From: a virus
IMG/VR virus record: IMGVR_UViG_3300025087_000263
Span: 1 to 28,151 of that record
DNA length: 28,151 nucleotides
Direction: 5' to 3' (one strand)
The notes under the pieces are model-generated. The model was not told the origin of the DNA, did no database searches, and saw only the letters and a program-made list of their open reading frames with translations. Below, one piece after another: positions 3,489-22,477 of the stretch; the first letter of the stretch is position 1, and each line of letters starts with the position of its first letter. The position numbers and the translations under genes are program-made.

Positions 3489-3505
3489 AATTTAACAATA
3501 AAAAA

Positions 3506-3528
3506 GCCCCACGCAAAAAACGTGAGGC
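3506..3528 (-). terminator. Leader hairpin with T-tract before adaptor gene
   Basis: On the minus strand GCCTCACG pairs with CGTGGGGC-type sequence around a T6 loop, with one G-T pair, followed by CTTTTTT. It has the form of an intrinsic terminator for the 417-aa gene upstream (stop at 3558). However, the TATAAT box lies upstream of it, so it also falls in the 5' leader of the adaptor mRNA. Confidence 0.6.
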
Positions 3529-3550
3529 AAATACCTATGAGTATATTATA
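3529..3550 (-). promoter_or_regulatory. Promoter -10 and start motif for adaptor unit
   Basis: Minus strand reads TGTTATAAT at 3553-3545 (extended -10), then seven bases and TAGGTATTTGCC, a variant of the 12-mer shared by six gene starts in this window. No good -35 is present at 17-18 bp (TACCTT). The bases from the -10 to the start codon are nearly the same as in the portal leader. Confidence 0.55.
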
Positions 3551-3557
3551 ACACTAA

Positions 3558-4811
3558 TCAGCGCGGGAAAGGTACTACGCCCATGCCTATAATATCCTTG
3601 ACTACAGTAGTTGGTATTGATCCTACTACCAAATATAAAAACTGTCTGGCTGTAGCATCGGCAGTTCCATAATTTAGGGTAAAATCATCTGAATTGAAGG
3701 AATCCAAGTCTGCATCTGCTTCAGTTGTTGGCCCACCCGATGCTTCTGTTAAATGTTTTAATACAGCAGTTCTATCTAAATCAGATTTAGCTACTGTATC
3801 AGCTTGGTTATCTAAGTCCCCAATCCAAATATGCCCTCTCTGTGTAGTAGATGAAGCAGCACCTAATGAATTTCTACCGCTAGTTATAATCGAGGTAGTG
3901 GCTATATTATTAAAACCTGTTAGCAAAAGTCCTGTTGGAGTAAATCCTATACCAGACGTTGCTTGAGTACCCGTAGAGGTCTTTTGTGTATCAGCTCCTA
4001 CTTTATACTGTCCGCCTTTTAGGGCTAAATAAAAGATTTGTCCAGCTTCAGCAACTATGGTTGTCCAATTTAGGGTAAAACCATCACTATCAAGGCTAAC
4101 CAGCACTGCCTCCTTATTCTTTGTATCAGTAAAGGGATCAATCATTGCAAAAATGGAAGCTGTGCGTTGATACCGTGCTGTATCGCTAGGATCAGAAGCA
4201 TTCCCCTCTGTTTTCCATGAAGATACCCATTGTGCCGAGGAACTTGTACCAACCCCAAGTGACCATTGAATATGATGAAATCCGCCAGGAAGCGTGCTGT
4301 CCAAATGGCGTGGAGAAAAAAGGAGTAAACAGTCTGGTTGAAATCCTACGCCTGTTGTTCCTGCATTTCCTACAACAAGGGGATTTGTAAAACTTCCTGC
4401 TTTGACATTGCTTAAATCTGTGCCCCCCAAAGCTATATAGTTTATTACCCTTGATGTGGCATCGGCTGTAGTAACATTTATGGTAAACCCATCAGCATCT
4501 TGAGAAACAAAATCAGCAGCAGCCAAAACAGTATTGGCAGTATTGATAAAAGTGAGGCATTTTGTGTTATCTAAACGGTCTCTGGCAGCAGCAGTAGCAG
4601 CAGCATCATTCGAGATTCCCATTCCTGTCCATCTCTCTGTTGACGAAATAGCACAGCCCAACATCTCATTTGCATTAGCCCCCGACCCGTCAGCAGTTAA
4701 AGCATTGGCGAAAAAGAGAATGACTTTTGGTTGAAACCCCACTCCTGTAATCGCTTGATTACCGGTTGAGGTATTCATGGAAAATGATCCAACATAAGTA
4801 GAGAGTGCCAT
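3558..4811 (-). CDS. Fibre-like protein with three tandem domains
   Basis: The 417-aa protein is built from three copies of a domain of about 130 residues (roughly 5-130, 135-265 and 270-410). Each opens with a GxQxxxGxGFxP block (GVGFQPKVILFF, GVGFQPDCLLLF, GIGFTPTGLLLT) and closes with a DGFTxNxxTxxA....YxAL block. This is the repeat style of receptor-binding or decoration fibres. Start is coupled to the 111-aa gene by TAATATG. Host-surface binding is inferred from repetition, beta-rich content and location among tail genes. Confidence 0.6.
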   Translation of the reverse strand: MALSTYVGSFSMNTSTGNQAITGVGFQPKVILFFANALTADGSGANANEMLGCAISSTERWTGMGISNDAAATAAARDRLDNTKCLTFINTANTVLAAADFVSQDADGFTINVTTADATSRVINYIALGGTDLSNVKAGSFTNPLVVGNAGTTGVGFQPDCLLLFSPRHLDSTLPGGFHHIQWSLGVGTSSSAQWVSSWKTEGNASDPSDTARYQRTASIFAMIDPFTDTKNKEAVLVSLDSDGFTLNWTTIVAEAGQIFYLALKGGQYKVGADTQKTSTGTQATSGIGFTPTGLLLTGFNNIATTSIITSGRNSLGAASSTTQRGHIWIGDLDNQADTVAKSDLDRTAVLKHLTEASGGPTTEADADLDSFNSDDFTLNYGTADATARQFLYLVVGSIPTTVVKDIIGMGVVPFPR

Positions 4812-4812
4812 A

Positions 4813-5148
4813 TTATCCTAATAGAGCTAAATATTTAGTTGCGAAAGTTCTAACTTCAATAGGCAGAAGAACATTTTTCTCAATATCTTGTAGGGATTGT
4901 TTTAATTCTGCTAATTTCCGTAGTTGTTCAGACTCCAAATATGCTCTATCAACACCTGCTTCTTTTGCCTCAATAGTAGTTGCTGCCACTTTTTTATCAG
5001 CTAAATCTAATTTCCAGGGGCCATTTGCCAAATCAATATCCTGGGACAAATCAACCACTGTTTCATCTGTGGAAATAGATGGGTTGATATCAGTTGTGAT
5101 CCTTCTAATTACTCTGGTTTTTGTTTCTATAATTGCTTTTTGTGACAT
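4813..5148 (-). CDS. Small virion-region protein, 111 aa, unknown
   Basis: Not recognised. The N-terminal half is polar and strand-like (KAIIETKTRVIRRITTDINPS); the C-terminal half is a helical, charged stretch with heptad-like leucines (about residues 60-95) that could form a coiled coil. It sits between two fibre-like proteins, so a fibre-assembly or connector role is possible. It has the strongest ribosome site in the structural region, AAGGAGGTG six bases before ATG, in contrast to its neighbours, most of which have none; high translation is expected. Confidence 0.6.
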   Translation of the reverse strand: MSQKAIIETKTRVIRRITTDINPSISTDETVVDLSQDIDLANGPWKLDLADKKVAATTIEAKEAGVDRAYLESEQLRKLAELKQSLQDIEKNVLLPIEVRTFATKYLALLG

Positions 5149-5149
5149 T

Positions 5150-5158
5150 TTTTCACCT
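5150..5158 (-). promoter_or_regulatory. Strong Shine-Dalgarno of the 111-aa gene
   Basis: Minus strand AAGGAGGTG lies immediately before the run of A that precedes the ATG at 5148. It also overlaps the stop region of the upstream 421-aa gene. It shows that the host ribosome has a canonical anti-SD sequence even though many genes here lack one. Confidence 0.7.
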
Positions 5159-5160
5159 CC

Positions 5161-6426
5161 TTATACCTCGTATCCTGTAACTATCCCCTGAATGTTGCCC
5201 GCGCTAGTTGTAAGCAGGAGATCGGAAGCATCTTCCCCGCTAAATACAGGAGTTTTAAAGGGTCGTGACATTCCACTATTAGCAGCATAAGCACCACCAA
5301 TTCCTACTACTGAATCCCCTGCTGCCAAATCATCCTCAAATGTTACAGTGGCAGCAGCAGAAACAACATAATGAATATCGGTGATATACCATCTTTTACC
5401 TGCCGCAGGACTCCAAATGATTGCATCTGTTTGTGCGCCAGTTAGATTGAATGTTTTATTGACCTTATTACTTCCAAGTACTGCAAAATCTTCTTCTGAA
5501 TCTATTACATGAATTGCCCCCGATTTCGAATGAGAGGTAGGGATATAATCTAAATCTGTCCCCGCTAAAGCTACATTGGGAGTATCATTCCTTACCCCCA
5601 GATTCATTACGCCCGTATCACCCGAAGTATGTCCAGCATCTTCAGCTTTACCCAGGTTTGTTGCACCAGTTCCAGGCACAACAGATGATGTTATAGAAGC
5701 TAAGGTGACATCATTGTTTGTTCCTAAATTAACCAAGGTTCCATCTGTAGAATCGCCTTTTTGCCTATCCCAGGTTGTTCCATCAAAAACATATCCTAAA
5801 GCACTGACATTGATTGTATCCGTAGTATTTACTAGATCATCAGCTTGGGTAGTAGTAATTAAAGAAGCTGTACCCAAAACATTGGAAAAATCAGTTCCCA
5901 ACATCACATCTTGTGAATCTTGGACAGCAAAAGTGCCAGCATTAGAAACAGGTTGTGTAGCTTGCCAAAAGGTGCCACTTACGGGAACCGTTGCCCCACT
6001 TGCAGCAATATTTACATCCATTTGGGAGGAAGCATTTATAGCAGCTGCAAGTTCAGTAAGCCCTGTATTGGTTACAGCTACGGCATTCGTAATGGAAGTA
6101 ATTGTTCCTGAAGTTACAGTAATATCATTATTCGTACCTAGATTAACTAGCAAACCATCCGCTACAGTCCCTTGTATTGGCAGAAGGGTACTAGAAGCCC
6201 CCTCCATTAGCATAGCTGTACCAGTAATAGTAGTATCGGTATCGCCTTCGGTATATTGGGTTAAACCTAATATAGTGTCTATACCAACGATATGAACAGT
6301 TAAACCTCTAGTGGTAGTATCATATTGAAAAGGCCTAATAGAAGCTGCTGAATCAGTCGCAGAAGACACCCCCCCTACTGCTGCTATGAAATTTTGATCT
6401 TTTGGAAGCACACCCGCTGTAGCCAT
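5161..6426 (-). CDS. Beta-rich virion/fibre protein, 421 aa
   Basis: Low-charge, Thr/Ala/Gly/Val-rich protein of the kind found in phage fibres and capsid spikes. It contains the phrase SGTFWQATQPVS near residue 150, which recurs in many phage structural proteins, and an internal repeat DGxLVNLGTNND(I/V)T at about residues 89-101 and 225-237. The last about 110 residues look like a compact beta domain (GKRWYITDIHYVVSAAATVT). It begins a transcription unit behind its own promoter and hairpin leader; no Shine-Dalgarno is present. Placed upstream of the 111-aa and 417-aa genes, which end the unit. Confidence 0.6.
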   Translation of the reverse strand: MATAGVLPKDQNFIAAVGGVSSATDSAASIRPFQYDTTTRGLTVHIVGIDTILGLTQYTEGDTDTTITGTAMLMEGASSTLLPIQGTVADGLLVNLGTNNDITVTSGTITSITNAVAVTNTGLTELAAAINASSQMDVNIAASGATVPVSGTFWQATQPVSNAGTFAVQDSQDVMLGTDFSNVLGTASLITTTQADDLVNTTDTINVSALGYVFDGTTWDRQKGDSTDGTLVNLGTNNDVTLASITSSVVPGTGATNLGKAEDAGHTSGDTGVMNLGVRNDTPNVALAGTDLDYIPTSHSKSGAIHVIDSEEDFAVLGSNKVNKTFNLTGAQTDAIIWSPAAGKRWYITDIHYVVSAAATVTFEDDLAAGDSVVGIGGAYAANSGMSRPFKTPVFSGEDASDLLLTTSAGNIQGIVTGYEV

Positions 6427-6442
6427 AATTTAAATAATAAAA

Positions 6443-6464
6443 ACCCACACTCAAAAGTGTGGGT
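6443..6464 (-). terminator. Leader hairpin with T-tract before 421-aa gene
   Basis: Perfect 8-bp stem ACCCACAC/GTGTGGGT with a TTTTGA loop followed by TTTTATTATTT on the minus strand. It is 26 bases after the coiled-coil gene stop at 6490, yet downstream of the TATAAT at 6486, so it lies inside the leader of the 421-aa gene mRNA. Confidence 0.65.
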
Positions 6465-6489
6465 AAATTCCCATAAGTTAATTATACCA
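6461..6489 (-). promoter_or_regulatory. Promoter -10 and start motif for 421-aa unit
   Basis: TGGTATAAT (extended -10; TATAAT at 6486-6481), seven bases, then TGGGAATTTACC, a near-perfect copy of the shared 12-mer. The -35 region is poor (AAATAC at 18 bp), so the extended -10 probably compensates. Confidence 0.6.
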
Positions 6490-6996
6490 TTAAATAGAGC
6501 CTAAGTATTTGTCCACCTCTTGCCTGTCCCTTTTTAATCTCTCCTCTTTAATCTTCAACATCTGGGCTAAATTCTGCATTCCCTCTGTCTGTACTTTGAC
6601 CTTATTTTCCCCTTCCATAAGTATCTGCTTTGCTTTTTCAAGCTCTTTTTCTCTTGATTCTAGCCTTAACTTATCTTTAGATACCTCTTCTTTATCATTA
6701 TCTAATTTTTCTTTATCTATAACCATTCTTTGCCACTCGTCCTGTAGTTTCTGTTGTTTAGCCTCAATTTCTATTTTTTCTTTCTCATTTTGTCTTTTAA
6801 TTTCCTCTATAAAATGAGTTTCTTCTAAGACTTTTGATTCTCTCTGGGCTACTTTTAATTCCCTTACATTAAGGGTATTTTCTTTATCTGTCAATTCTCT
6901 ATCCTTAATCTCCGAATTGGCAATTAAAATTTCAACATTTGCCAATTCATTATTTAATCCTAATGCTAGATTTTTAACTTTTTCAAATGGATTCAT
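6490..6996 (-). CDS. Coiled-coil protein, 168 aa
   Basis: Almost the whole chain from residue 15 to 160 is charged heptad sequence rich in E, K, L and Q, with no Pro or Gly in the central part; it will form a long coiled coil. No enzymatic motif. Start overlaps the preceding stop as ATGA. Located before the fibre genes, it could be an assembly chaperone, an internal virion protein or a spacer rod. No family assigned. Confidence 0.6.
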   Translation of the reverse strand: MNPFEKVKNLALGLNNELANVEILIANSEIKDRELTDKENTLNVRELKVAQRESKVLEETHFIEEIKRQNEKEKIEIEAKQQKLQDEWQRMVIDKEKLDNDKEEVSKDKLRLESREKELEKAKQILMEGENKVKVQTEGMQNLAQMLKIKEERLKRDRQEVDKYLGSI

Positions 6997-7226
6997 ACCC
7001 TAATTACCTTTCTCAATTCTTCTCGCCTTTTTTCATAATTTGAATTAGCTGGGGGAGATTGCCAAAGCATCCGCTCTATAAGTTTACTTTCTAAAAGATC
7101 AGCCACATGATCCTCAAATTCTTTAATCTCACCCGCTTTTAGAGTGTGATACTGGGGATTTTCACCATATTGATCTATATAGGTGTTGATATCTTCCAAA
7201 GAAGGATTATATAGACTTCTGCTCAT
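6993..7226 (-). CDS. Small unknown protein, 77 aa
   Basis: Not recognised. Mixed charged sequence (SLEDINTYIDQYGENPQYHTLKAGE) followed by a predicted helix (EIKEFEDHVADLLESKLIERML) and a basic tail. It overlaps the preceding gene by 20 nt and shares its TGA with the ATG of the coiled-coil gene, showing tight translational coupling. Function unknown; gene is supported by packing and codon pattern. Confidence 0.55.
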   Translation of the reverse strand: MSRSLYNPSLEDINTYIDQYGENPQYHTLKAGEIKEFEDHVADLLESKLIERMLWQSPPANSNYEKRREELRKVIRV

Positions 7227-7410
7227 CTATCTTCTTCTCCAATTCATTGAAGGCTAATAGAAGTTCTATTATAATCTGGGTTTTAACATGGTTGGTAATT
7301 CCACCCGATCCTGATATGACCTGCATTTTAACTCTTAAATCATCTGCTGTAACACGGATCTTTACGATATTTGAAACTGATAAAAAGAGGTTCTCTGAAA
7401 TACTATTCAT
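7207..7410 (-). CDS. Small unknown protein, 67 aa
   Basis: The frame is open from an ATG at 7422, but the ATG at 7410 is chosen because GAGGAGGAAG immediately precedes it as a ribosome site; that gives MNSISENLFLSVSN as the start and an 8-nt overlap with the upstream gene. The sequence alternates strand-like and helical parts (IVKIRVTADDLRVKMQVI; TQIIIELLLAFNELEKKIDEQ). No family recognised. It sits in the small-gene run between the zinc-finger protein and the coiled-coil protein. Confidence 0.55.
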   Translation of the reverse strand: MNSISENLFLSVSNIVKIRVTADDLRVKMQVISGSGGITNHVKTQIIIELLLAFNELEKKIDEQKSI

Positions 7411-8149
7411 CTTCCTCCTCAACTATTTTAGGAGTATCTGGTTGTACTGGCTCTTTATGACTTCTTCTGTGACTCTGTAACCCAAAATCACTGGCGCACT
7501 CTTTTCCGCATACATCACACACTAAGCTAGTAGCAACCTTAGGTTCATCTGTTTGATTTTGGGTCATTGTAGCTTGTTGTGGGGCATTTTCGTCAATATC
7601 TGCTGGTGGAGTAGGCGTAATAGTCGGTTGACCACCTAAAACATCAATCCCTGGGTCAAATTCTGAGATGTGCTGTTTTCTATCTGTTGGCTGCTGGGTT
7701 TGTCCCCTAAGTCCATACTCTTTAACCAGACCTCCATCAAGTATTCTAACTATCTGCTCCCTTTTGCCCATTAAACTTTTAAGATTCCTGTTTTCAAGTC
7801 TTGGTTGTTCTGTGTGCAAATCCATCTTAGGGAAACCCCTTTGTAATCTTTTCTCATTTTCCTCAATAATAGCCCTATCTGATTTAACAGTAATTATCTT
7901 TTGTGACATTTCCTCAAGATATTTAATTCTGACATAGTTAGGGACTATTGCTTCCCCATTTCTATCCCTTTCTTTAGCTGGAATAGTCCATACCTCTGGT
8001 GAGATTTTGGCATTTAGGATAACTTCATAGGGTTGGTTGGTGGGATTAAAAACTTTGTATAGATCCCTGCTTTTACGCTCCAGTTCTACCCTTTGAATAT
8101 CAGCATTTCTTTTAGCTCCTGCAGATGGCCCGATAACATTAGGCTCCAT
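7403..8149 (-). CDS. Virion-region protein with C-terminal C2H2 zinc finger
   Basis: The start is placed at 8149 rather than at the more upstream ATG at 8188, because 8149 sits on the recurrent TAATATG junction after the upstream gene; this gives 248 aa. The N-terminal about 160 residues form a basic mixed domain, followed by a Pro/Thr/Gln-rich linker and a single C2H2 finger, C211-x2-C214-x12-H227-x3-H231, with the hydrophobic spacing of a true finger (VCDVCGKECASDFGLQSHRR). The tail ends in EEEDE. Single C2H2 fingers occur in some phage head or tail proteins and could bind DNA or act as a structural clasp. The overall family is not recognised. Confidence 0.6.
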   Translation of the reverse strand: MEPNVIGPSAGAKRNADIQRVELERKSRDLYKVFNPTNQPYEVILNAKISPEVWTIPAKERDRNGEAIVPNYVRIKYLEEMSQKIITVKSDRAIIEENEKRLQRGFPKMDLHTEQPRLENRNLKSLMGKREQIVRILDGGLVKEYGLRGQTQQPTDRKQHISEFDPGIDVLGGQPTITPTPPADIDENAPQQATMTQNQTDEPKVATSLVCDVCGKECASDFGLQSHRRSHKEPVQPDTPKIVEEEDE

Positions 8150-8150
8150 A

Positions 8151-8360
8151 TTAGTTTGCTTTACCTTTCGGTTTAGCATCCTCTTCATAAATAGCTATAA
8201 TTGTTGAAGGAGAGATAATCATTGCCCCCGAGTCTGTAAAATCAATTCTAGGACGGTTTGTCCCGATTAAAATACCATTTTCTTTTAAGAATTTATTTAA
8301 AACTATTTGCGCTGATTCTCTGGTAGATGGAATTGGTTTGCGGTTTTCAGATTCAGACAT
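8151..8360 (-). CDS. Small unknown protein, 69 aa
   Basis: First gene of a unit with its own strong promoter. A polar N-terminus (MSESENRKPIPSTRESAQ) precedes a helix (IVLNKFLKEN) and a strand-rich middle (GILIGTNRPRIDFTDSGAMIISP), with a basic end. No family recognised. The start lies only two bases after the conserved leader motif TAGGAATTTACC, so its 5' UTR is predicted to be about 15 nt and has no separate Shine-Dalgarno apart from the AGGA in that motif. Confidence 0.55.
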   Translation of the reverse strand: MSESENRKPIPSTRESAQIVLNKFLKENGILIGTNRPRIDFTDSGAMIISPSTIIAIYEEDAKPKGKAN

Positions 8361-8363
8361 GTT

Positions 8364-8413
8364 GGTAAATTCCTATTAAAATAATTATACCACAATGAAA
8401 TAAGCTATATCAA
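8364..8413 (-). promoter_or_regulatory. Strong promoter of the 8360 unit
   Basis: TTGATA at 8413-8408, 18-bp spacer, TATAAT at 8389-8384 preceded by TGTGG (TGG extended -10). Eight bases later is a perfect TAGGAATTTACC, which reaches to the start codon with only AAC between. The -35 box directly abuts the TAG stop of the 177-aa gene. No hairpin in this leader. Confidence 0.75.
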
Positions 8414-8947
8414 CTAATCCTGTTGGGGTGAAACAGCACCATTGGAAGAAAGAGGAATCCAAACTAGGAAAAACTTGATCACACCTGTTGTAGGCTCGGT
8501 AGTTGTTGTATAGACATATTCTATATCTGTATTTGCGGTAGGTTTTGCAACCACTACAAAAGGCGAAAAATAATCAGTTTCTAAAGTAGTTGGCTCCGAT
8601 ACTCTTTCTTGGGCTGCTGTTAAAAGTGTTAAAGCGGCTGCAGCTAACCCTTTTTTTACTAAAATAGATCCAACTGCTGCAGAGGAAATAGTAGTTCCCG
8701 TACTTAAGGTAATATCCGATTGTGCTGTCTGATCGTTTAACCTAAAATAAGCAGCTGTATGATTCGCTCCAACTACTGTTGTAACTACGCCATATAGTTT
8801 TTTAACTTCAACTGATCCTGTAATCCTAAATAATGACTCCTCTACTGTATCATTGGAAGCATCTAAAGTTAAAGAAGTTTGAGTACGGAAACCTCCCAAA
8901 TCAAGTGTCTGTCCATTATCATCTCTAAGTTGTATTCTGTCAGCCAT
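8414..8947 (-). CDS. Beta-rich virion protein, 177 aa
   Basis: A Thr/Val/Ala-rich protein with regular strand spacing (SLFRITGSVEVKKLYGVVTTVV; YFSPFVVVAKPTANTDIEYVY) and few charged residues, typical of capsid-attached or tail-attached structural proteins. It is the last gene of the coat protein unit; a new promoter begins at its stop codon. No catalytic motif. Role as a minor structural protein is inferred from composition and place. Confidence 0.55.
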   Translation of the reverse strand: MADRIQLRDDNGQTLDLGGFRTQTSLTLDASNDTVEESLFRITGSVEVKKLYGVVTTVVGANHTAAYFRLNDQTAQSDITLSTGTTISSAAVGSILVKKGLAAAALTLLTAAQERVSEPTTLETDYFSPFVVVAKPTANTDIEYVYTTTTEPTTGVIKFFLVWIPLSSNGAVSPQQD

Positions 8948-8955
8948 ATTTTATA

Positions 8956-9165
8956 TTATATCACTTCTTTTATACACTCAAAACTGGTTACATTATATTT
9001 ACTCATCCATTCAAATAATTCTTTAGAAAGATTTAGCTTTACCTTGAGATAATCTATCGGCATATCGCTATCGGGATCTATAAGTTCGAGGGTTCCGTCA
9101 TTATGATAATAGAGAACAGCATTTATATTATTGCGTTGGATTTCAAGTTTATATAACCGTGCCAT
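8956..9165 (-). CDS. Small unknown protein, 69 aa
   Basis: Not recognised. It is strand-rich in the first half (LYKLEIQRNNINAVLYYHNDGTLELI) with an acidic loop DPDSDMP and a helical end. It could be a small head-joining or chaperone-like component, since it lies between two virion proteins. No Shine-Dalgarno; the start is 10 bases after the beta-helix gene. Confidence 0.5.
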   Translation of the reverse strand: MARLYKLEIQRNNINAVLYYHNDGTLELIDPDSDMPIDYLKVKLNLSKELFEWMSKYNVTSFECIKEVI

Positions 9166-9175
9166 GAGTAGATTA

Positions 9176-10147
9176 TTATACTGTTGGATTTATTGCAATA
9201 CCAATAGTAGCTGTTGCAGTATTGTATGCTTGCATTTGAATTCTCCCAGAAGCGGTTGCTTCCCAGTCCGTAATGCCTGTACTGAGAAATGGCTCTCCTG
9301 TTATAAGAATATGTCCTGTTGCTGTTTGGGCAGATAAATCCATACATCCAGTAACTGCCTGACCATTATTAGTTGAGAAGGCATAAAAGCGACAATTATG
9401 AAATTCTGTCCAGCGGTCAATACCCGAAGTACCAGTTACTAATACATGTGTTTGTGTTCCGGCTGTATCTGCGTGCATTGTGAAGAAGCAACCATCAAAC
9501 ACATTTCTCTTTGACCCACCTTCCATCTCCAATGAGGTGTTGGCTACGCCACGAGTCATTGTATCTGCTCCAAAAGTACAACCTACAAAATTGTTTTCTT
9601 CTGCTCCATTTAGGTTCAATGCCCTCCAGGGAGTTGAATCTGCCGATGTAGCGTTAGAAGTTCCTTTAAAGTCGCAACCGAGAAAAGCATTATAGTCTCC
9701 TGTGATTGATACTGTTTCGTCAATATCAGCCGAACTCGTAAAAGTTAGACTTTTGAAAATACAACCATTCTCGGAAATTACCAACGAACCTCCTGTTGAA
9801 AAACCAAGCCCCGCTCTTGGATTCTGTACAGTTGGTGCTGCAGAACCAATTAAATGGGCAAATCTTTTACCCCAGGTGATTGCAGTAGTTTCAGCAGTCC
9901 TACCTGTACCTCCTGATGGGGCAATAATTACTACATCATGGTTTCCTGAGGTCATTACAGCATAAGCTGCTGCAACAGTATCAAAAGCCTGTGACTGCCT
10001 TCGTCCATTGTTATTATCTGATCCTGAATTTGCATCAACATATAAAACCTTACCTACATGAGGTAAGCCTAACATTCCCGCTATATCCTCGGGATATATT
10101 TTATGTCCTGCTTTTAATGCTGGTGCGTAATCGCTATATTTTCCCAT
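9176..10147 (-). CDS. Right-handed beta-helix virion protein, 323 aa
   Basis: After a short N-terminal segment the sequence opens with KVLYVDANSGSDNNNGR, the signature that begins many pectate-lyase-like right-handed beta-helices, and continues with short repeated rungs: ENGCIFKSLTF, GDYNAFLGCDFKG, EENNFVGCTFGA, KRNVFDGCFFTM, TEFHNCRFYA. Such proteins occur beside the coat gene in many environmental phages, as capsid-surface or head-fibre proteins that may bind sugars. No clear catalytic triad was identified. Start is joined to the zinc microprotein stop by TAATATG. Confidence 0.7.
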   Translation of the reverse strand: MGKYSDYAPALKAGHKIYPEDIAGMLGLPHVGKVLYVDANSGSDNNNGRRQSQAFDTVAAAYAVMTSGNHDVVIIAPSGGTGRTAETTAITWGKRFAHLIGSAAPTVQNPRAGLGFSTGGSLVISENGCIFKSLTFTSSADIDETVSITGDYNAFLGCDFKGTSNATSADSTPWRALNLNGAEENNFVGCTFGADTMTRGVANTSLEMEGGSKRNVFDGCFFTMHADTAGTQTHVLVTGTSGIDRWTEFHNCRFYAFSTNNGQAVTGCMDLSAQTATGHILITGEPFLSTGITDWEATASGRIQMQAYNTATATIGIAINPTV

Positions 10148-10148
10148 A

Positions 10149-10295
10149 TTATCTTTCTACCTTGCCTGTTCCCTTACAAAACTCACAAGGTGTCTTACCT
10201 GTTGCCGAACCCTCGCCATCACAATTCAAACAATCCTGAATTGTTGATTTTGCTTCATTTTTTATCTCTTGTTTAACTTCTTTTTTAACTTCCAT
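10149..10295 (-). CDS. 48-aa DnaJ-type zinc-finger microprotein
   Basis: A lysine/glutamate-rich helix (about residues 1-18) is followed by two CxxCxGxG motifs, C22-x2-C25-DGEG and C37-x2-C40-KGTG, the zinc centre of DnaJ/Hsp40-type fingers. No J-domain is present; the protein is just this finger. It sits between the decoration-like and beta-helix genes and behind a terminator/attenuator-like hairpin, so its expression is probably kept below that of the coat gene. Possible roles are folding assistance or structural zinc binding. Both motifs and the coupled stop (TAATATG with the next gene) support a real gene. Confidence 0.7.
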   Translation of the reverse strand: MEVKKEVKQEIKNEAKSTIQDCLNCDGEGSATGKTPCEFCKGTGKVER

Positions 10296-10300
10296 ATATT

Positions 10301-10337
10301 TTAAAAAACCCTCACGATATGAGGGTTAATCATATCG
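10301..10337 (-). terminator. Terminator overlapping a competing stem (attenuator-like)
   Basis: Minus strand: AACCCTCA (10327-10320) pairs with TGAGGGTT (10314-10307) around a 5-base loop and runs into TTTT. Overlapping it, CGATATGA (10337-10330) can pair perfectly with TCATATCG (10322-10315), which would use part of the terminator stem and its loop. The two stems are mutually exclusive in part. It lies between the decoration-like gene and the zinc microprotein. Confidence 0.6.
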
Positions 10338-10376
10338 GCTCCTGAATCAGCTATTTAGCTTTCCTCGTCAACCCGA

Positions 10377-11093
10377 TTATCTATCAATCATCAAGTAAAC
10401 TAATTGATATTCTGTTTCAACTCCACCCTGTGGTCCTTGGATACCGATTGTTGGATCACTTGCGGCTGATGTGTCTACTGTACCTGCGGTTTCATCCCCT
10501 GTGGATAAATCCGCACCTACTCCTGAGGTTTCGTCCTGCCATACTGAACATGGCCCCCATACTTGAACCCATCCATAGTAGAGAGTAGTCAAAGCAACTA
10601 CCGGAACTCCTGTAGGTACATCCAGATTATCTGATCCAGGTCCGATCACAATATCATCATATCTGTTCTTGATAATATCAACATTTACTTCAGCAAGTGC
10701 TCCAGCGGTATCAATTGGTTCTTTCAGATAATATGTATTGGCAACAGACGCTGTAATTGCATCATGGCTTTCAATTGGATATGCCCGTCCTTCTCCTGTA
10801 CCGTCCTGGACTACCAACCAACCGTCCTGGTATACATCTGCAACATCAGCTCCTGTTCCGACAGTAACACTAACTGATTTAGCTCCTACAGCCGGAGCGG
10901 TTGCAAAAGAAAGATTAACCCTTTGTGCATCCTGGTCGGCAGATACAGTCATTACTCCCCTGGCAATACTAGACCCGCCGGCTTGGGCATATTTAAAGAC
11001 CCTTCCGGATGAATCCAGATTTAGAGTGGAACCTAACTCCATAAGTCTTACTGTTCCTATTTCTGTGTATAATGATGGTGATAATTTACTCAT
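10377..11093 (-). CDS. Head decoration-like protein, 238 aa
   Basis: Follows the coat gene by the TAATATG junction, the usual place for a capsid-stabilising protein. Sequence features seen in environmental phage proteins next to coat genes are present: DGWLVVQDGTGEGRAYPI, then SHDAITA, IVIGPGS and a late TLYYGWVQVWGPCSVW block. It is mostly beta-strand, acidic and Gly-rich, ending in a variable acidic-Thr region. Role as decoration or head-fibre base is inferred from synteny and from these recurrent phrases. Confidence 0.6.
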   Translation of the reverse strand: MSKLSPSLYTEIGTVRLMELGSTLNLDSSGRVFKYAQAGGSSIARGVMTVSADQDAQRVNLSFATAPAVGAKSVSVTVGTGADVADVYQDGWLVVQDGTGEGRAYPIESHDAITASVANTYYLKEPIDTAGALAEVNVDIIKNRYDDIVIGPGSDNLDVPTGVPVVALTTLYYGWVQVWGPCSVWQDETSGVGADLSTGDETAGTVDTSAASDPTIGIQGPQGGVETEYQLVYLMIDR

Positions 11094-11094
11094 A

Positions 11095-12216
11095 TTATTC
11101 TATTCCGTCTATATTATATAATTGTCCATTTCTTCGTGGTTCATCCGCACAGACATTTCCGACTACTGCAAAGTAAGCTACTGTTCCAAGCTGAGTAACC
11201 AAAGACTCATCTTTTCTGTAAAACCAACCCACAGGTGATGGAGGCATATCAATCATAGCTGCGCTTGACTCATATCCTTCACCATCACCCAAAGATACTT
11301 TTTCATATCTTTCTCTCAATCTAGATGGAACCCTATCATTACCATACCAACCGAATGTTCTCTCGTTTAACATGTAAAGTGATTCTGCTTTGGCACTGTC
11401 GTCTTTAATAATAGGAACTTGTCGATAAAACATGGTTGTGAATCCTGCTCTTGCTCCAAATTCCCCTGGAGCCAGAACCTCTAAGCCCCGAAGCGGAAGT
11501 TTAGGCATTTGGTTTGACTGATATTGATTCTGTAAAAATGGAGTAAGTAACTCCTCAATGAAAGACCAGACTGTTTTAGTGGTAACCCCGATTGTAGGTG
11601 AACCCTCTTTTGATCCTGAAGCTGATACAGCATCCATGAGGGCTGAAATCTTAGCTGCCGTAACAACAGTTAAAGCATCTGTGTAAGTTCCTCTTAATAC
11701 CGTATATGTAGTTTTGGATTGTCCACCAATTGTAGTTTTTAGAGTTCCACTATCTGCAAATGAATCCAAACCCTCCGGCTGGTCACCTACTCCTGCATCA
11801 AAGATCACATCTCCCAACTCTTGTGTCACAACTGCTGCAGCCTCTTTATATTTGAAAGATTCCAAATCAATCACCCCTGCATCACCATCATTGGCAAAGT
11901 CCTCAAAGTCAATCATAGCCTTAGGCTGGACACCCATTACTCTAGCGTAATTTAACTCAATAGTGTTATTAACTGCTGATGCTGAAAGTTCCTCGCCTCC
12001 ACCACCAAGCCATCTGAACTGAGAATCTTTGGAGTGAGTAACAGTGAAAGTTTTATATTTACCAGAGAAGGACTTACCCATTGAGAAAACACGGGAACCA
12101 AATGTGGTTGCTACTAATACATTGTCAATCACCTTCCTATAAAGGTCTCTATTTGAAAAGTTTTCTACTCTGTTGGAGAGTGCTATTCCGTCATAAGTTG
12201 TGCTAAATGTAGGCAT
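11095..12216 (-). CDS. Major capsid protein
   Basis: The 373-aa protein fits the length and layout of HK97-fold coat proteins: N-terminal arm (about 1-45), an E-loop-like Gly-rich stretch (FRWLGGGGEEL at about 68-78), a spine helix (KEAAAVVTQELGDVIF) and a C-terminal ending with GNVCADEPRRNGQLYNIDGI, close to the 'GNLxxxNPRRxGxLxGI' end of many coat proteins. The scaffold gene lies directly upstream. It has the best promoter in the window, so high late expression is expected. No N-terminal protease domain is fused. The coat assignment is firm; a P22-like or other subclass cannot be settled here. Confidence 0.88.
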   Translation of the reverse strand: MPTFSTTYDGIALSNRVENFSNRDLYRKVIDNVLVATTFGSRVFSMGKSFSGKYKTFTVTHSKDSQFRWLGGGGEELSASAVNNTIELNYARVMGVQPKAMIDFEDFANDGDAGVIDLESFKYKEAAAVVTQELGDVIFDAGVGDQPEGLDSFADSGTLKTTIGGQSKTTYTVLRGTYTDALTVVTAAKISALMDAVSASGSKEGSPTIGVTTKTVWSFIEELLTPFLQNQYQSNQMPKLPLRGLEVLAPGEFGARAGFTTMFYRQVPIIKDDSAKAESLYMLNERTFGWYGNDRVPSRLRERYEKVSLGDGEGYESSAAMIDMPPSPVGWFYRKDESLVTQLGTVAYFAVVGNVCADEPRRNGQLYNIDGIE

Positions 12217-12226
12217 TTTTTTCCAT

Positions 12227-12252
12227 TAAAAAACCCCGACTTTCGTCGAGGT
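12227..12252 (-). terminator. Leader hairpin with GAAA loop and T-tract before coat gene
   Basis: Minus strand ACCTCGAC-GAAA-GTCGGGGT, an 8-bp stem with one G-T pair and a GNRA tetraloop, followed by TTTTTT. It lies between the coat promoter and the coat start codon, ending about 10 bases before ATG. Intrinsic-terminator form, but it is in the 5' leader. Confidence 0.65.
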
Positions 12253-12298
12253 AATTTCCTATGTTTTAATTATAGAACAATTAAAAATAGTTTGTCAA
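12250..12298 (-). promoter_or_regulatory. Consensus promoter of the coat protein unit
   Basis: TTGACA at 12298-12293 and TATAAT at 12274-12269 with an 18-bp spacer: both hexamers are perfect sigma70-type consensus. Seven bases later is TAGGAAATTACC, a one-base variant of the shared start motif, which runs directly into the hairpin stem. It is the strongest promoter seen in the window and lies just after the scaffold stop. Confidence 0.85.
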
Positions 12299-12313
12299 CT
12301 ATCGATTTTAAAG

Positions 12314-13045
12314 CTAAGATTCGTATTGGCCCTTGATTAAATCATCCATATCTGTTTTATGTAACTGGTCATAAGTAAGTCCACTGTTAGGAGTAGTTGA
12401 CCTACCCCCACCTGATACTGGTACATTAGCACCCGCTACTGTTTCCATCCTTAATATATTGGGATTTTCATAAAACACCTCTTTCAGAGTAGGAACATAA
12501 TCAATCCCATTTTTCTCATTCTCATCTAATATTTGTTTCATTTTGGTTAAGATTTTAACTCTGGCAATATTACCCGGATCGTTTTTATCATCTTTATTGG
12601 TAACTTTAGGGACTCTACCTACCTCTGCCAACTCATTATATTGGTTTGCCCAAAGAGTTTGGAATCTTTGCGCCCCCTCCTGAATTTGTGTCTCTCTTGC
12701 CTCTACTTGATCCTGCTCTCTTTTAGCCTGTTGGTTTAAAACCTCCTGTACACCTTTTTGGGTTTCTGCCCTGACAAACTTAGATAATTCGGCAGGATCG
12801 GTGGGTATCTTCTCTTCTGTTTCTTTTTTGGTTAAACCTAACGCCTCGCCTATTTTTGCAATAACCCCTTTAGATACCTTCTCCTCTAACCCTTTTAAAT
12901 CAGACTCTGTTGGTGGTGGGGTTGGTTCAGAAGGCGATGTTGCTGGTATCGTTGGCTCTGTTGGAGGTGTTGCGGGAGATGTTACTGGTGCTGTTTTGGT
13001 TGGATCTTCTGCAGGTAAGGTAGGATTATTGTCTTGTGGATTCAT
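12314..13045 (-). CDS. Scaffolding protein
   Basis: The 243-aa protein has a Pro/Thr-rich disordered N-terminus (residues 1-48), a helical, charged Gln/Glu-rich middle (about 50-190) and a Gly/Ser linker leading to SGLTYDQLHKTDMDDLIKGQ, a common end of phage scaffolds that contacts coat subunits. It lies immediately before the coat gene. Acidic-helical composition and position are the evidence. It has its own promoter and no Shine-Dalgarno. Confidence 0.8.
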   Translation of the reverse strand: MNPQDNNPTLPAEDPTKTAPVTSPATPPTEPTIPATSPSEPTPPPTESDLKGLEEKVSKGVIAKIGEALGLTKKETEEKIPTDPAELSKFVRAETQKGVQEVLNQQAKREQDQVEARETQIQEGAQRFQTLWANQYNELAEVGRVPKVTNKDDKNDPGNIARVKILTKMKQILDENEKNGIDYVPTLKEVFYENPNILRMETVAGANVPVSGGGRSTTPNSGLTYDQLHKTDMDDLIKGQYES

Positions 13046-13068
13046 ATGTATTATTTACTATTAAAAGA

Positions 13069-13098
13069 ATTATAACATAATAGACAAAATTATATCAA
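13069..13098 (-). promoter_or_regulatory. Promoter of the scaffold gene
   Basis: TTGATA at 13098-13093, 18-bp spacer, TATAAT at 13074-13069 within TGTTATAAT (extended -10). The -35 box overlaps the TGA of the upstream 150-aa gene. The leader that follows (TAGTAAATAATA) is only a weak relative of the shared start motif and has no hairpin. Confidence 0.75.
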
Positions 13099-13547
13099 TG
13101 GAAAGGGCTTTTTAATGCTTGTTGAGCTAAAGTAACTAATCCCAAGGGGTTTGCGGTATTCAAAGAACGCCTATATTTTATTGGCTCATTTAGTGTTGTT
13201 GATAGGGCAAAACGAGCAAGTCTGTTTGGAGAAGTTATTTGTCTTGACGGTCTGGGTTGAACAATAGACATCCTAGGACTAGATCTGAATGGTAAAACAG
13301 ATGCTTTGGAAGGAGGAGTAATAAGTGTTCTTCTTCCTTCACTAGTAATTGTATTAGGACGTACCACCGCTCCAATTCCTTGTTGTTTTAAATATTCTGC
13401 CATAGCGAAATCTACTTGACCACCACCCCCTCGTGGATCTGGGACCATAACCGCAGGAGTAATTATACCTGTTCTTTTTCTCCAATCCTCATAGCTTTCA
13501 TTAGGCAGGACTGAATTGTTATTTATTGATCTAATTCTTGGTTCCAT
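13095..13547 (-). CDS. Basic virion-region protein, 150 aa, unknown
   Basis: Not recognised. Rich in Arg, Pro and Ser (for example PFRSSPRMSIVQPRPSRQITSP) and largely free of long helices, with a Gly4 run near residue 40. A basic disordered protein between portal and scaffold could be a minor head or DNA-binding component. It starts about 11 bases after the 44-aa gene and ends inside the scaffold promoter. Confidence 0.5.
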   Translation of the reverse strand: MEPRIRSINNNSVLPNESYEDWRKRTGIITPAVMVPDPRGGGGQVDFAMAEYLKQQGIGAVVRPNTITSEGRRTLITPPSKASVLPFRSSPRMSIVQPRPSRQITSPNRLARFALSTTLNEPIKYRRSLNTANPLGLVTLAQQALKSPFH

Positions 13548-13558
13548 ATGAAATTGTA

Positions 13559-13693
13559 CTAATAACTTTTTAAAGCCCTTTTGGCTTTTTCAATGTTAGT
13601 TAGATTTTTACCATACTTTTTATCCCATCTTTTGGCTATCTTAGGTCTATTTATATGCATCCATACTCTTTGGTTATTACTCTTGTACGACAT
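13559..13693 (-). CDS. 44-aa phage protein of the 'MPYxSxxQxRxMHAxxPxIAxRWD' type
   Basis: Sequence starts MSYKSNNQRVWMHINRPK and continues IAKRWDKKYG, matching a small basic protein often found near the portal or terminase of phages, usually written as MPYKSxxQRRxMHAxHPxIAxRWDxxYG. Function in that family is not known to me. Its ATG lies inside the 3' end of the HNH gene (17-nt overlap). A second N-terminus of the same kind lies at 14200 on the far side of the HNH gene, so this copy may be the intact or regenerated one. Confidence 0.65.
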   Translation of the reverse strand: MSYKSNNQRVWMHINRPKIAKRWDKKYGKNLTNIEKAKRALKSY

Positions 13694-14123
13694 GATATCT
13701 TATATCTTTCCCAGCTTCATAGTGTCGTTCCAGGTGGCATCTAATACATAAAACTTCAAGATTCTCAATATTGTGGTCAATCTGATTTTTGCGTCCAATA
13801 AAATTCTTATGGTGGATCCAAAGCAATATTTTATATTTCTTATAGCCACAGAGTTCGCAAATTTCTCCTTTTTCTCTAAATGCTCGTTGCCGATAACTGC
13901 TTCTACCGTCTTTCCATTGTCCTGTCTGCTCACCATAACGGACTCTTTTATCAATAGTTCCTTTATGTTGACAAGCCATCGAGCAAAATCGAACAGGTTT
14001 ACCTCTTTTATTGCCTTGAGTAATACAAGAGGATCGAACAGAAAAAATCTTTCTACAAAAGTCACATTCAAGTTCAATATTGGGCTGACGGGTTTTATTA
14101 AGACTTCCCTTTGGTCTTCCCAT
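13677..14123 (-). CDS. HNH homing endonuclease
   Basis: The 148-aa protein has two zinc knuckles, C20-x2-C23...C47-x3-C51 and C89-x2-C92...C126-x2-C129, and the HNH core around residues 103-133: WIHHKNFIGRKNQIDHNIENLEVLCIRCHLERH, giving His-His, Asn and the final His of the beta-beta-alpha metal fold. The N-terminus MGRPKGSLNKT is a typical DNA-binding tail of phage HNH proteins. It is placed between two similar small-gene starts and has its own promoter. Likely a free-standing mobile endonuclease. Confidence 0.85.
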   Translation of the reverse strand: MGRPKGSLNKTRQPNIELECDFCRKIFSVRSSCITQGNKRGKPVRFCSMACQHKGTIDKRVRYGEQTGQWKDGRSSYRQRAFREKGEICELCGYKKYKILLWIHHKNFIGRKNQIDHNIENLEVLCIRCHLERHYEAGKDIRYHVVQE

Positions 14124-14200
14124 ACATTTATTATAACACGTCCACCTTTGGTATGTCTAGCGTGCATATATCTCATTTGGTCTTCTGATTGATAAGGCAT
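14124..14200 (-). pseudogene. 5' fragment of a small phage gene cut by the HNH gene
   Basis: Starts at the TAATATG junction after the portal and reads MPYQSEDQMRYMHARHTKGG, the N-terminus of the same small protein family as the 44-aa gene at 13693. The expected continuation (IAxRWDxxYG) is missing; instead the HNH promoter and gene begin. The frame stays open as a 166-aa reading to 13700, but that part is only the shadow of the HNH gene. Confidence 0.5.
14130..14159 (-). promoter_or_regulatory. Promoter of HNH gene at 14123
   Basis: TAGACA at 14159-14154, 18-bp spacer, TATAAT at 14135-14130 (TGT extended -10). Only six bases separate TATAAT from the ATG, so the transcript would begin at or next to the start codon (leaderless). 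It lies inside the interrupted small gene. Confidence 0.6.
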
Positions 14201-14201
14201 A

Positions 14202-16241
14202 TTATATTCCTATCATATTTCTAATCCCACCCATAGCTCTTTGCATGATATTAGGACTTCCCTGTGGCTCTGTAGCAACATTAGATATATCCTGGGGTGA
14301 TGGTATGGTAGGTGGTGGCTGTACTACTCCCGGTTGTCCACCGGCCTCTGCCCCTGGTATTTCTTGCTGTGTTTGTCCGACCACCTGGTTTGCCATTTCT
14401 GCAATATCCTGTCCTAAGACTATCTTTTTATACCACAGCTCAGGAGAGGTATTAAACAGGAATAATGCCTCAGCCCTACCTTCGGGATCGGGAATGCCAG
14501 TATCTTTATAGTAATAGTAGGGTTCTATTAGCTTAAGCTGTGCCATTTGCTGGGCGTTTCTCTCAGCCCTCAGCTTATCGGTAGTTGATGCCTTAACCAC
14601 TACCTCCAAGCCATCGTCTATTGAGTCATTGTTTAACCTCAAGTGTAAATATTTACCCTCCTCAACTCCTGCTATCTGCTTCCAGTGTTCCTCGGTATAG
14701 CGGAGCTTCATCATGTGCATACGCGCTTTAGCAGATTCTGTGGCAACGTGCAAAATAGTATCATTGACCAGATCATCATTAGCTGTAAAATCAGCCTCCC
14801 TTGATATTTGATTTGAAGTAGCAACCTGAGTTGTAAGCTCACCTCTTGTAGCCCCATGTACCGACACTTTGGCAAAAATTCTCTCTAATCTTGCCCTGAC
14901 GTGTTGAAACATCTCAGCCGGAGGCATCACAGGCTGGATAAAACCATGTGTTTGGTTAAGATCACCCTTAATACTTGTAATATCAGCATCAGGATTATTC
15001 ATATCCAGCTTCTTTAGATCTTTTTTAGTCATACCTGAATCAGCACCCCAAAGATGCTTACCTTTGTGGTTTTTAACCATATGGTCTATTTGGCGTTCTA
15101 CATCATCCCTGGATTTTTGAAGTGGGATAGTCTGCTCAATCCTGGAGGTTTGGTCTATAGCAGAAAGCAGGAACTGGTCAAAGGTCATAAAGATAAAAGG
15201 CTTTTTAGGGAACTCAAAATAATTATTAAAGACCTTTTTAATCTCAAAGCCCTGTGGCTGTTGGCCTGTCAGCATAATCTGCTCCATTATCTCAGGTGCT
15301 ATAGGCTCACCATTCACCATTGCCACATCGTGTCCTTCATAATCCCAATTAGGATTTTTACTCTTACCTAGTAATACCTCTTTAGATAGCTTCCAAGCTA
15401 CACCGGACATAAAGTTAAACTTAACATTGCTCTGCGGGTCAAAATCCTCTGCCTTATCAAACCAGTCATACCAGCACTCGGCCACTCTAACCTTTTGAGC
15501 CATTAACACATCCTCATCCTCTGCATTTTCGGCTAGTCTTGGGTGGGCTTTGGCAATATGCTTTTTAATATCCTCCTCTTTATCAGGAAACAACATAGCC
15601 CATTCTTTGGCGGTTTTCTCTACATAATGGATAATAAACTGCATCTCATCAGGGTCAGAGGATAGAGCAGTGTGGTCTACTACTATATGGTCAGGATTAA
15701 TAACTTCCTCTACAATATCCCCGATCTTTTTTCTTGAAGCATCCCACCTATATTTCCTGACAGCTATGAGGTAGGCAGGCATGTGCTTAAACATCATGCC
15801 TAAATCACGCTTGTTTTTATCACTATCAACTACCTTTTCTATAGCCTTGGTTAAAACCTCGGCTGTTAGTTTCCTGGCCTCATCTCCTCCCACACCACCC
15901 GGCTCAATAACAATATCAGGCATCTTAGATACAGCCAGCGCCTTGAGCATCTTTTCAAACTCATAGATAATGTTATCCACTAGCTCTGACTCATAGGGCT
16001 TAAGCTGTCTGCCTAGTAACTGCTTACCGAATAGATACTTAATATTCTGTTTTCTTCTCTCTTTTAGGTTGATGCCATCAGGTCCTGATTTATTCCAATG
16101 CTCATCAGCTGCCTTTTCCAGCCCTGTTAGATATCTAAGTAGCTTTTTATCCTCAATTTCCACTGTTAAAGGTGCAAGGGTGGGAATAACTCCTGTTTCG
16201 GGGGTAAACCTATTATTTGTATCAATAATCTGTGAATCCAT
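14202..16241 (-). CDS. Portal protein
   Basis: I place the start at 16241 (MDSQIIDTNN) rather than six codons upstream, because the upstream codons lie in the leader hairpin; this gives 679 aa, in the range of large podovirus portals. The layout fits: helical N-terminus, ERRKQNIKYLFGKQ, an internal region with IVVDHTALSSDPDEMQFIIHYV, a stretch with RDDVERQIDHMVKNHKGKHLWG, helices such as HVRARLERIFAKVSVHGATRGE around the channel, and a Pro/Gln-rich C-terminal tail. It would form the dodecameric ring at the capsid vertex and dock TerL. Upstream neighbours are TerL and a zinc-ribbon protein. Confidence 0.85.
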   Translation of the reverse strand: MDSQIIDTNNRFTPETGVIPTLAPLTVEIEDKKLLRYLTGLEKAADEHWNKSGPDGINLKERRKQNIKYLFGKQLLGRQLKPYESELVDNIIYEFEKMLKALAVSKMPDIVIEPGGVGGDEARKLTAEVLTKAIEKVVDSDKNKRDLGMMFKHMPAYLIAVRKYRWDASRKKIGDIVEEVINPDHIVVDHTALSSDPDEMQFIIHYVEKTAKEWAMLFPDKEEDIKKHIAKAHPRLAENAEDEDVLMAQKVRVAECWYDWFDKAEDFDPQSNVKFNFMSGVAWKLSKEVLLGKSKNPNWDYEGHDVAMVNGEPIAPEIMEQIMLTGQQPQGFEIKKVFNNYFEFPKKPFIFMTFDQFLLSAIDQTSRIEQTIPLQKSRDDVERQIDHMVKNHKGKHLWGADSGMTKKDLKKLDMNNPDADITSIKGDLNQTHGFIQPVMPPAEMFQHVRARLERIFAKVSVHGATRGELTTQVATSNQISREADFTANDDLVNDTILHVATESAKARMHMMKLRYTEEHWKQIAGVEEGKYLHLRLNNDSIDDGLEVVVKASTTDKLRAERNAQQMAQLKLIEPYYYYKDTGIPDPEGRAEALFLFNTSPELWYKKIVLGQDIAEMANQVVGQTQQEIPGAEAGGQPGVVQPPPTIPSPQDISNVATEPQGSPNIMQRAMGGIRNMIGI

Positions 16242-16274
16242 AAAAAAAGCCCCACACAAAAAAAAGCGTGAGGC
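16242..16274 (-). terminator. Leader hairpin with T-tract before portal gene
   Basis: Minus strand GCCTCAC (16274-16268) pairs with GTGGGGC (16255-16249), one G-T pair, around a T-rich loop, then TTTTTTT directly followed by the portal ATG. The terminator form abuts the start codon itself. Confidence 0.6.
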
Positions 16275-16296
16275 AAAGACCTATGAGTATATTATA
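16273..16296 (-). promoter_or_regulatory. Promoter -10 and start motif for portal unit
   Basis: TATAAT at 16296-16291, seven bases (ATACTCA), then TAGGTCTTTGCC. The seven bases and the following motif are nearly identical to those before the adaptor gene at 3488. The -35 is weak (TATTCA at 18 bp). Confidence 0.5.
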
Positions 16297-16764: not shown

Positions 16765-16776
16765 ATTATACCATTT
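16765..16776 (-). promoter_or_regulatory. Extended -10 of HNH gene at 16758
   Basis: TGGTATAAT, overlapping the stop of the zinc-ribbon gene, ends exactly six bases before the GTG start codon, the same distance as at the other HNH gene. The -35 is poor (TTCGTA). Implies a leaderless or nearly leaderless transcript. Confidence 0.5.
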
Positions 16777-17248
16777 CTGGGCTCAAAATACGAACCATTC
16801 CTAAATAAGTAAAGACTTGTTTACACATTGGATTACCGCATAAAAAAGACTCACCCTTTTTAGCATCAGCCTTAGACTGATAATGGATCACTTTATCCCC
16901 ACTAAAATATAAATTCCTCATTTGGCAGTTGTAGCAGTGGTAAGTCCTGACATTATCATCATTAAAATACTGATCCTGAATCCAGAAGTTAACAGATTGT
17001 GATTCATCCTCCTTACCCTCTTTAAATGAATACTGGATATTATCTGAAACTCTAACTGATTTAACTATAAACTGTGGCGTATCTTCAGGATCAAAACCAG
17101 GGTAAATAACCTTAACCAATCCCTGATACCTCATAATCTGGTTCTGGTTATATGGACAAAAGAACATCCTTAATCTGATAGTCTCCTCAATAGGAGGCTT
17201 GGAAACAAGGACTGTTAAAACATTCTTGCCTATTATATCTTTATACAT
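16766..17248 (-). CDS. Zinc-ribbon protein between TerL and portal, 160 aa
   Basis: N-terminal two thirds are beta-rich (RMFFCPYNQNQIMRYQGLVKVIYPGFDPE) and the C-terminal third has four cysteines as C105-x2-C108 and C137-x4-C142 around a strand-rich loop, a zinc-ribbon arrangement. Its ATG directly follows the TAA of the terminase gene without any gap. It may bind DNA or the portal/terminase complex, but no family is known to me. Confidence 0.6.
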   Translation of the reverse strand: MYKDIIGKNVLTVLVSKPPIEETIRLRMFFCPYNQNQIMRYQGLVKVIYPGFDPEDTPQFIVKSVRVSDNIQYSFKEGKEDESQSVNFWIQDQYFNDDNVRTYHCYNCQMRNLYFSGDKVIHYQSKADAKKGESFLCGNPMCKQVFTYLGMVRILSPEMV

Positions 17249-22423: not shown

Positions 22424-22427
22424 TATT

Positions 22428-22477
22428 GGTAAATTCCTAATATACTAATTATAAAACTATTATTAGCACAATATCAA
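22428..22477 (-). promoter_or_regulatory. Promoter of the groS-groL-terminase unit
   Basis: TTGATA at 22477-22472, 18-bp spacer, TATAAT at 22453-22448. Eight bases later a perfect TAGGAATTTACC, then four bases and the groS ATG. No hairpin in the leader. Identical in design to the promoter at 8413-8364. Confidence 0.75.

Follow-up and report, generated by a model that had tools for sequence, protein, structure and literature searches.

A putative transcription-attenuation switch at the 5′ ends of late mRNAs in an uncultivated phage and its relatives

The virus record IMGVR_UViG_3300025087_000263 (28,151 bases, analysed over its full length and called the window below) carries its genes mostly on the minus strand, among them those for a P22-type portal, a terminase, a coat protein (PHROG match), GroEL and GroES. 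In four of its leaders a terminator-like hairpin stands between promoter and start codon. We find that the 5′ foot of this hairpin can pair instead with a short block just upstream, forming an alternative mini-hairpin, here termed H1, and that this pairing is maintained across related phages while its sequence changes. We propose that the leaders are minimal transcription-attenuation switches at the 5′ ends of late mRNAs, in which H1 would be held by a trans-acting factor; from the sequence evidence we rate this reading slightly better than even, at about 0.55.

Four leaders carry a hairpin built like an intrinsic terminator

The original prediction, made from the window's sequence, had placed four hairpins with a T-tract between a TATAAT box and an ATG. 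All four are present on the minus strand at those positions, and in the portal leader the T-tract does abut the ATG, as it had also stated. Each stem has 8–9 base pairs, 5–6 of them G-C, followed directly by T4–T7, and lies 3′ of a TATAAT and 7–17 nucleotides (nt) 5′ of an ATG that opens a long frame; promoters and start sites were assigned from consensus. The GC-rich stem with an immediate U-tract is the sequence make-up of an intrinsic terminator. Around 38 gene starts (at most 25 nt away) the minus strand of the window has four strictly defined T-tract hairpins that come with a −10 box, against 0 in 200 dinucleotide shuffles. The elements of the four leaders are as follows.

16242..16296, minus strand: portal leader, putative switch; −10 TATAAT 16296-16291; H1 AGGT(16282-16279)-CTTT-GCCT(16274-16271); terminator stem 16274-16249; T7 16248-16242; ATG 16241
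12228..12298, minus strand: coat leader, putative switch; −35 TTGACA 12298-12293; −10 TATAAT 12274-12269; H1 AGG(12260-12258)-AAATTA-CCT(12251-12249); terminator stem 12252-12233, then T-tract; ATG 12216
6439..6486, minus strand: gene 6426 leader, putative switch; −10 TATAAT 6486-6481; H1 TGGG(6473-6470)-AATTTA-CCCA(6463-6460); terminator stem 6464-6443, then T-tract; ATG 6426
3500..3550, minus strand: gene 3488 leader, putative switch; −10 TATAAT 3550-3545; H1 AGGT(3536-3533)-ATTT-GCCT(3528-3525); terminator stem 3528-3506; T6 3505-3500; ATG 3488

The window's portal leader is a near-identical copy of its 3488 leader, and in L052 (such names designate compared sequences) the portal leader is identical. 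In both copies (3470-3543 and 16213-16289, minus strand) the 5′ end of the leader, CUCAUA, can pair with the start-codon region and so enclose the terminator. An out-of-frame ATG stands immediately after the coat terminator (12216-12227, minus strand), opening a 7-codon mini-frame that overlaps the coat start.

An alternative mini-hairpin shares the foot of the terminator

The leaders are laid out in the order start site, short block a, A-rich loop of 4–7 nt, block a′ and the rest of the terminator. Block a′ serves both H1 (a:a′) and the base of the 5′ arm of the terminator, and because it is common to both, H1 and the terminator are mutually exclusive. An alternative hairpin sharing a strand with the terminator is one mark of a terminator/antiterminator attenuation leader, and here it is seen both in the overlap and in covariation across leaders. 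H1 starts 5–11 nt (median 8) past the −10 box, which by usual promoter spacing would place it close to where the RNA begins. Alignment of the leaders reveals a common block, ATAGGAATTTACC or close to it, 3′ of the −10 box in leaders with and without a hairpin; in the hairpin leaders the last CC or CCT of this block is the stem foot. The number of Ts following the leader hairpins is bimodal, and leaders with TATAAT plus the block all fall in the group with 6–8. Neither the double use of a′, nor the block AGGAATTTACC that the hairpin leaders have in common with the gene 8360 and groS leaders, which lack a hairpin, nor a fifth terminator described below had been recognised in the original prediction.

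More than 20 different a/a′ types occur, each complementary. They include GAGT-AATTTA-ACTC (L287), CGAG-AATATA-CTCG (L321), GGAG-AAATAA-CTCC (L286), AGGT-AATTA-ACCT (L300), CGAC-AAAATA-GTCG (L303), GGCT-AATATA-AGCC (L270) and CGGA-ACACA-TCCG (L295). Among 126 non-redundant leaders the mean pairing score was 8.55 with a leader's own 5′ block versus 5.14 (standard deviation 0.32) with exchanged blocks, a difference matched in 0 of 2000 permutations. When blocks were exchanged only within a single contig the scores were 8.98 and 7.13, and 1 of 2000 permutations reached the own-pair value; shared descent and base composition therefore do not explain the pairing. With the geometry set beforehand (loop of 6, offset of 1), four of four Watson-Crick pairs were formed in 12.1% of leaders versus 0.7% after exchange. 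Ordinary T-tract hairpins at 80 loci in cellular genomes had no such excess (33% vs 31%).

The loop behaves differently from the stem. Most loops that are 5 or 6 nt long have A at the first and last positions and U before the final A. Within G004 matching loops are found on different stems (GAGT-ATATTTC-ACTC, CGGT-ACATTC-ACCG and GAGC-CATTTTC-GCTC), G001 has the loop ATATA on the stems GCA, GGAA and GGC, and G009 likewise keeps the loop and changes the stem. Loop similarity within genomes exceeded that between genomes by 1.75, the maximum in 300 label permutations being 0.61.

The coat gene is the constant site among relatives

Eight relatives of the coat at ~85% identity were compared first, and two further searches added ~85 coat loci. 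All eight have the same plan at the coat gene. Across coat homologues a T-tract hairpin is present in 73 of 82 leaders, 64 of which also have H1. The leader plan of gene 6426 is kept in L038, L041 and L043 with different stems. By contrast, the portal and 3488 hairpin leaders are not kept in close relatives: those at 66–72% portal identity have a near-leaderless promoter in place of the portal leader while retaining the coat and 6426 hairpins. The original prediction had named absence of the stems from close relatives as evidence against it; that absence thus holds for the portal and 3488 and fails for the coat and 6426. The cassette is therefore subject to gain and loss, and the site at which it is constant is the coat gene.

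A scan found several switch elements in most of the compared genomes, at portal, coat and other structural-region genes. The 97 strong promoters in 11 genomes are mainly of the near-leaderless (35) and switch (27) types. In the portals of close relatives TATAAT often lies 5–8 nt before the ATG; spacings of 5–12 nt, which probably give leaderless mRNAs, are seen at 8955-8960 (minus strand) in the window, at the portal of L036, L041 and L048 and in several of the G-numbered genomes. When viral contigs were scanned for TATAAT-N6-10-AGGAATTTACC, 27 stretches came up, mostly from apparently unrelated contigs; L035 alone was recognised as the contig of a relative. At the coat gene of known phages that share the coat (TM7 phage MG269973, MW202566) the switch is absent. 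K-mer enrichment over the leaders yielded nothing beyond the −10 box and A-rich words.

Hairpin-less leaders and a fifth terminator

The groS and 8360 units lack a hairpin, as the original prediction correctly noted, and they carry the block close to the ATG.

8361..8389, minus strand: hairpin-less leader of gene 8360; −10 box 8389-8384; block GGAATTTACC 8373-8364; ATG 8360
22424..22453, minus strand: hairpin-less leader of groS; −10 box 22453-22448; block GGAATTTACC 22437-22428; ATG 22423
10303..10336, minus strand: fifth terminator, 10325-10309 plus T6, with a 48-codon open reading frame downstream; overlapping alternative hairpin of 7 base pairs GATATGA(10336-10330)-TTAACCC-TCATATC(10322-10316)

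The 8360 block includes a Shine-Dalgarno-like AGGA and recurs at the homologous gene in L036, L038, L041 and L043, and the groS block recurs at groS of L083. H1 without a terminator just before the ATG is clear only in the close clade of the window, with one possible case in G010. At the fifth terminator the alternative hairpin is stronger, and no clear −10 box lies immediately 5′. Layouts akin to it, with arms like GCAAGTG/CACTTGC, occur in G009, L296 and L302.

Comparison with known antitermination systems

In the leaders targeted by the ANTAR proteins EutV, NasR and AmiR, a P2 hairpin recognised through its loop overlaps the proximal arm of the terminator, shortens the terminator and parts it from the U-tract, and copies of the leader stand at several genes of the regulon (PMC3369936). 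The phage leaders resemble these in the hairpin that overlaps a terminator arm and in the copies at several genes. They differ in that ANTAR targets have two hexaloop hairpins in tandem (P1 and P2), both carrying A1 and G4, whereas the phage leaders have a single hairpin at the 5′ end of the RNA, with a loop of 4–7 nt that has no conserved G (G is rare at loop position 4). The RAT element of BglG, SacY and LicT is a protein-stabilised antiterminator that is mutually exclusive with the terminator (PMC3369936), as is H1; RAT, however, contains internal loops to which a dimer of CAT domains binds, and H1 is a plain stem of 3–4 base pairs. By the tests made, the switch belongs to neither the ANTAR nor the RAT family, and the window and 11 relative loci gave no match in Rfam 15 at gathering score.

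Lambda nut/boxB, too, is a phage leader RNA element with a small hairpin, whose five-base loop is rich in A, but in the present leaders the hairpin overlaps the terminator itself; no boxA came to notice, though no search aimed at one was made. The lambda pR′-tR′ region has, like these leaders, a promoter and then a terminator before late genes, and read-through by a phage factor would be the logic here too. Lambda Q acts on the polymerase via DNA elements (PMC6606751), whereas here it is RNA pairing that is conserved, with each late unit carrying its own copy.

A model for the switch and its alternatives

Under nearest-neighbour energies, in which coaxial stacking is not counted, the terminator is favoured over H1 plus the upper stem by a median of 5.4 kcal/mol, H1 itself being worth only about −2 kcal/mol. 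Because the terminator is the favoured fold, we infer that RNA polymerase, starting at a strong sigma-70-type promoter, would by default stop ~37 nt on. The first ~15 nt would fold as an H1 of 3–4 base pairs with an A-rich loop, its 3′ strand being the foot of the terminator 5′ arm; if H1 were held, the terminator would lose the pairs adjoining the U-tract and transcription would read through into the virion gene. By itself H1 lacks the strength for this, so that a factor acting in trans should be needed for read-through; the constancy of the loop in any one phage suggests that a protein reads it. The factor would probably be an RNA-binding protein of the phage's own making, which recognises the loop and holds H1 late in infection, and the phage probably keeps its coat and other virion genes off until the factor grips H1. 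The geometry would be like that of BglG and ANTAR, and the late-gene logic like that of lambda Q. What the sequences show are the promoter consensus, the overlap of H1 with the terminator, the covariation, the T-tract, the conservation at the coat gene and the constancy of the loop in a genome; termination in vivo, as well as the factor with its timing and identity, we infer. Among the explanations offered in the original prediction, antitermination is the best supported, and the sequence points to an RNA-structure form with a competing mini-hairpin rather than to the put/qut form that was suggested, because no fixed DNA sequence marks the start site, the stems vary freely and pairing alone is kept.

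Several observations weigh against this model. The omitted coaxial stacking could favour H1. The H1s of the window are short (AGG/CCU, AGGU/GCCU with a G-U pair and UGGG/CCCA), those of L036, L037 and L041 go down to GG/CC, and in all of these H1 rests on homology and the conserved block. Arms as well as loops are more alike within genomes (1.10, versus 0.50 or less in permutations), so part of the within-genome loop constancy is common ancestry. In 19 phage contigs no ANTAR domain exceeded the cut-off (G007 has one weak match) and no CAT_RBD domain was found, though the host may supply such a protein; among most of the window's open reading frames no Pfam match to a Q- or put-like protein emerged, in a scan that could miss distant homologues. 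RNA reading through from upstream would carry H1 too, not just the promoter's own RNA, and 120 of 131 elements lie within 100 nt after a same-strand gene and may therefore terminate that gene.

The hairpin might indeed be the terminator of the upstream gene, with the promoter tucked between stop codon and stem; enough of the promoter's own transcripts would then simply pass the terminator, which H1 would weaken for them. The stem lies a median of 37 nt past the upstream stop, few other intergenic T-tract hairpins are present in the compared genomes, and in the g10147 homologues of L036 and L037 the TATAAT sits within the loop of a terminator-like repeat (CCTCGCC-tataat...-GGCGGGG-TTTT-ATG), a terminator that only read-through RNA could form because the box is in the loop. 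In the main class, however, the entire hairpin is 3′ of the promoter, so its own RNA would be terminated too; the genome-constant loop is left without a role, the G011 element at +19515 seems to follow a divergent gene (though its H1 is weak), and nearness to an upstream gene has little force because the genomes are mostly co-directional. We regard this account as unlikely, although ending read-through from the upstream unit, another suggestion of the original prediction, may be a second role of the hairpins. That H1 is self-contained, folding first and cutting termination efficiency by a set amount with no trans-acting factor, appears decidedly unlikely: H1 should emerge ahead of the 3′ arm of the terminator and the stems do vary freely, but at about −2 kcal/mol it loses by ~5, and a loop that is the same within a genome and different between genomes points to recognition.

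We consider it very improbable that a Q-, put- or p7-type phage factor modifies RNA polymerase at the promoter so that all terminators are ignored, with the hairpin a gate like lambda tR′. A strong, constitutive-looking promoter and then a terminator before late genes is the lambda pR′-tR′-Q layout (PMC6606751), but Q requires that the promoter and the start region contain fixed DNA elements, where here the sequence is free, and H1 would go unexplained. The slimmest chance is left to a 5′ stabiliser or ribosome-loading device, in which the hairpin shields the 5′ end of the mRNA or bears a Shine-Dalgarno-like AGGA near the ATG. AGGA does stand at a normal distance from the ATG in the hairpin-less 8360 and groS leaders; block a, however, is often not Shine-Dalgarno-like (CGG, GAGT, CGAC, GGTT, AAGC), and several leaders have a second, regular Shine-Dalgarno beside the ATG. 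Pure 5′-end protection, also raised originally, is disfavoured, since a protective hairpin needs no T-tract and the leader hairpins of this family always carry one, which argues for termination.

Two further candidates were set aside. The idea that the hairpin loops a Shine-Dalgarno to the ATG was rejected for the hairpin class, block a often not being purine-rich and some leaders having a second Shine-Dalgarno, and a fixed DNA operator at the start site is not favoured, as the arms change while complementarity stays and the loop length varies.

Candidate factors and neighbouring genes

Two small proteins are candidates for the trans-acting factor.

19826..20215, minus strand: small Cys-rich protein, conserved in 10 of the 11 genomes compared; one among several candidate factors
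16766..17248, minus strand: small protein with a Cys motif, encoded between the terminase and portal genes and conserved in 10 of 11 genomes; also a candidate factor

Neither Pfam nor PHROG gave a match to the 19826-20215 protein. The structure models of both proteins are of middling or low confidence, and that of 19826-20215, of middling confidence, has no match in the PDB.

The coat and portal resemble those of a TM7 phage at ~25–32% identity, which is no more than a hint at the host. The GroEL and GroES genes occupy 20529-22423 (minus strand); most of the relatives compared have the pair too, and a Cpn60 is annotated in the TM7 phage. A protein with many GNSTVEAW/GNSTVKAW repeats is encoded at 26242-27372 (minus strand). 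Searching genome contigs with a terminase profile returned mostly relatives in Chloroflexi, Verrucomicrobia and Clostridia, and pointed to no host.

Implications for late-gene control

The timing of phage late genes is usually credited to new sigma factors, activators, phage-encoded polymerases or processive antiterminators. If the model is correct, a compact RNA switch, repeated from one late promoter to the next, would solve the timing problem in a different way, visible from sequence alone, in uncultivated phages whose gene control is unstudied. Tentatively, and at somewhat under even odds, the leaders may represent an undescribed class of RNA switches of ~35–40 nt, located at the very start of the transcripts of most late units in a widespread group of uncultivated phages and read by a phage-specific loop-binding protein of a new family; novelty was checked against Rfam 15 and open-licence papers. 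On this proposal the same loop block would also lie across the ribosome site of hairpin-less genes in the window's clade, and one factor would turn some genes on and others down. The element adds a structural signature: a conserved loop, a freely varying stem and a common terminator foot. If true, the model predicts a new family of RNA-binding proteins and would offer a minimal antiterminator to study.

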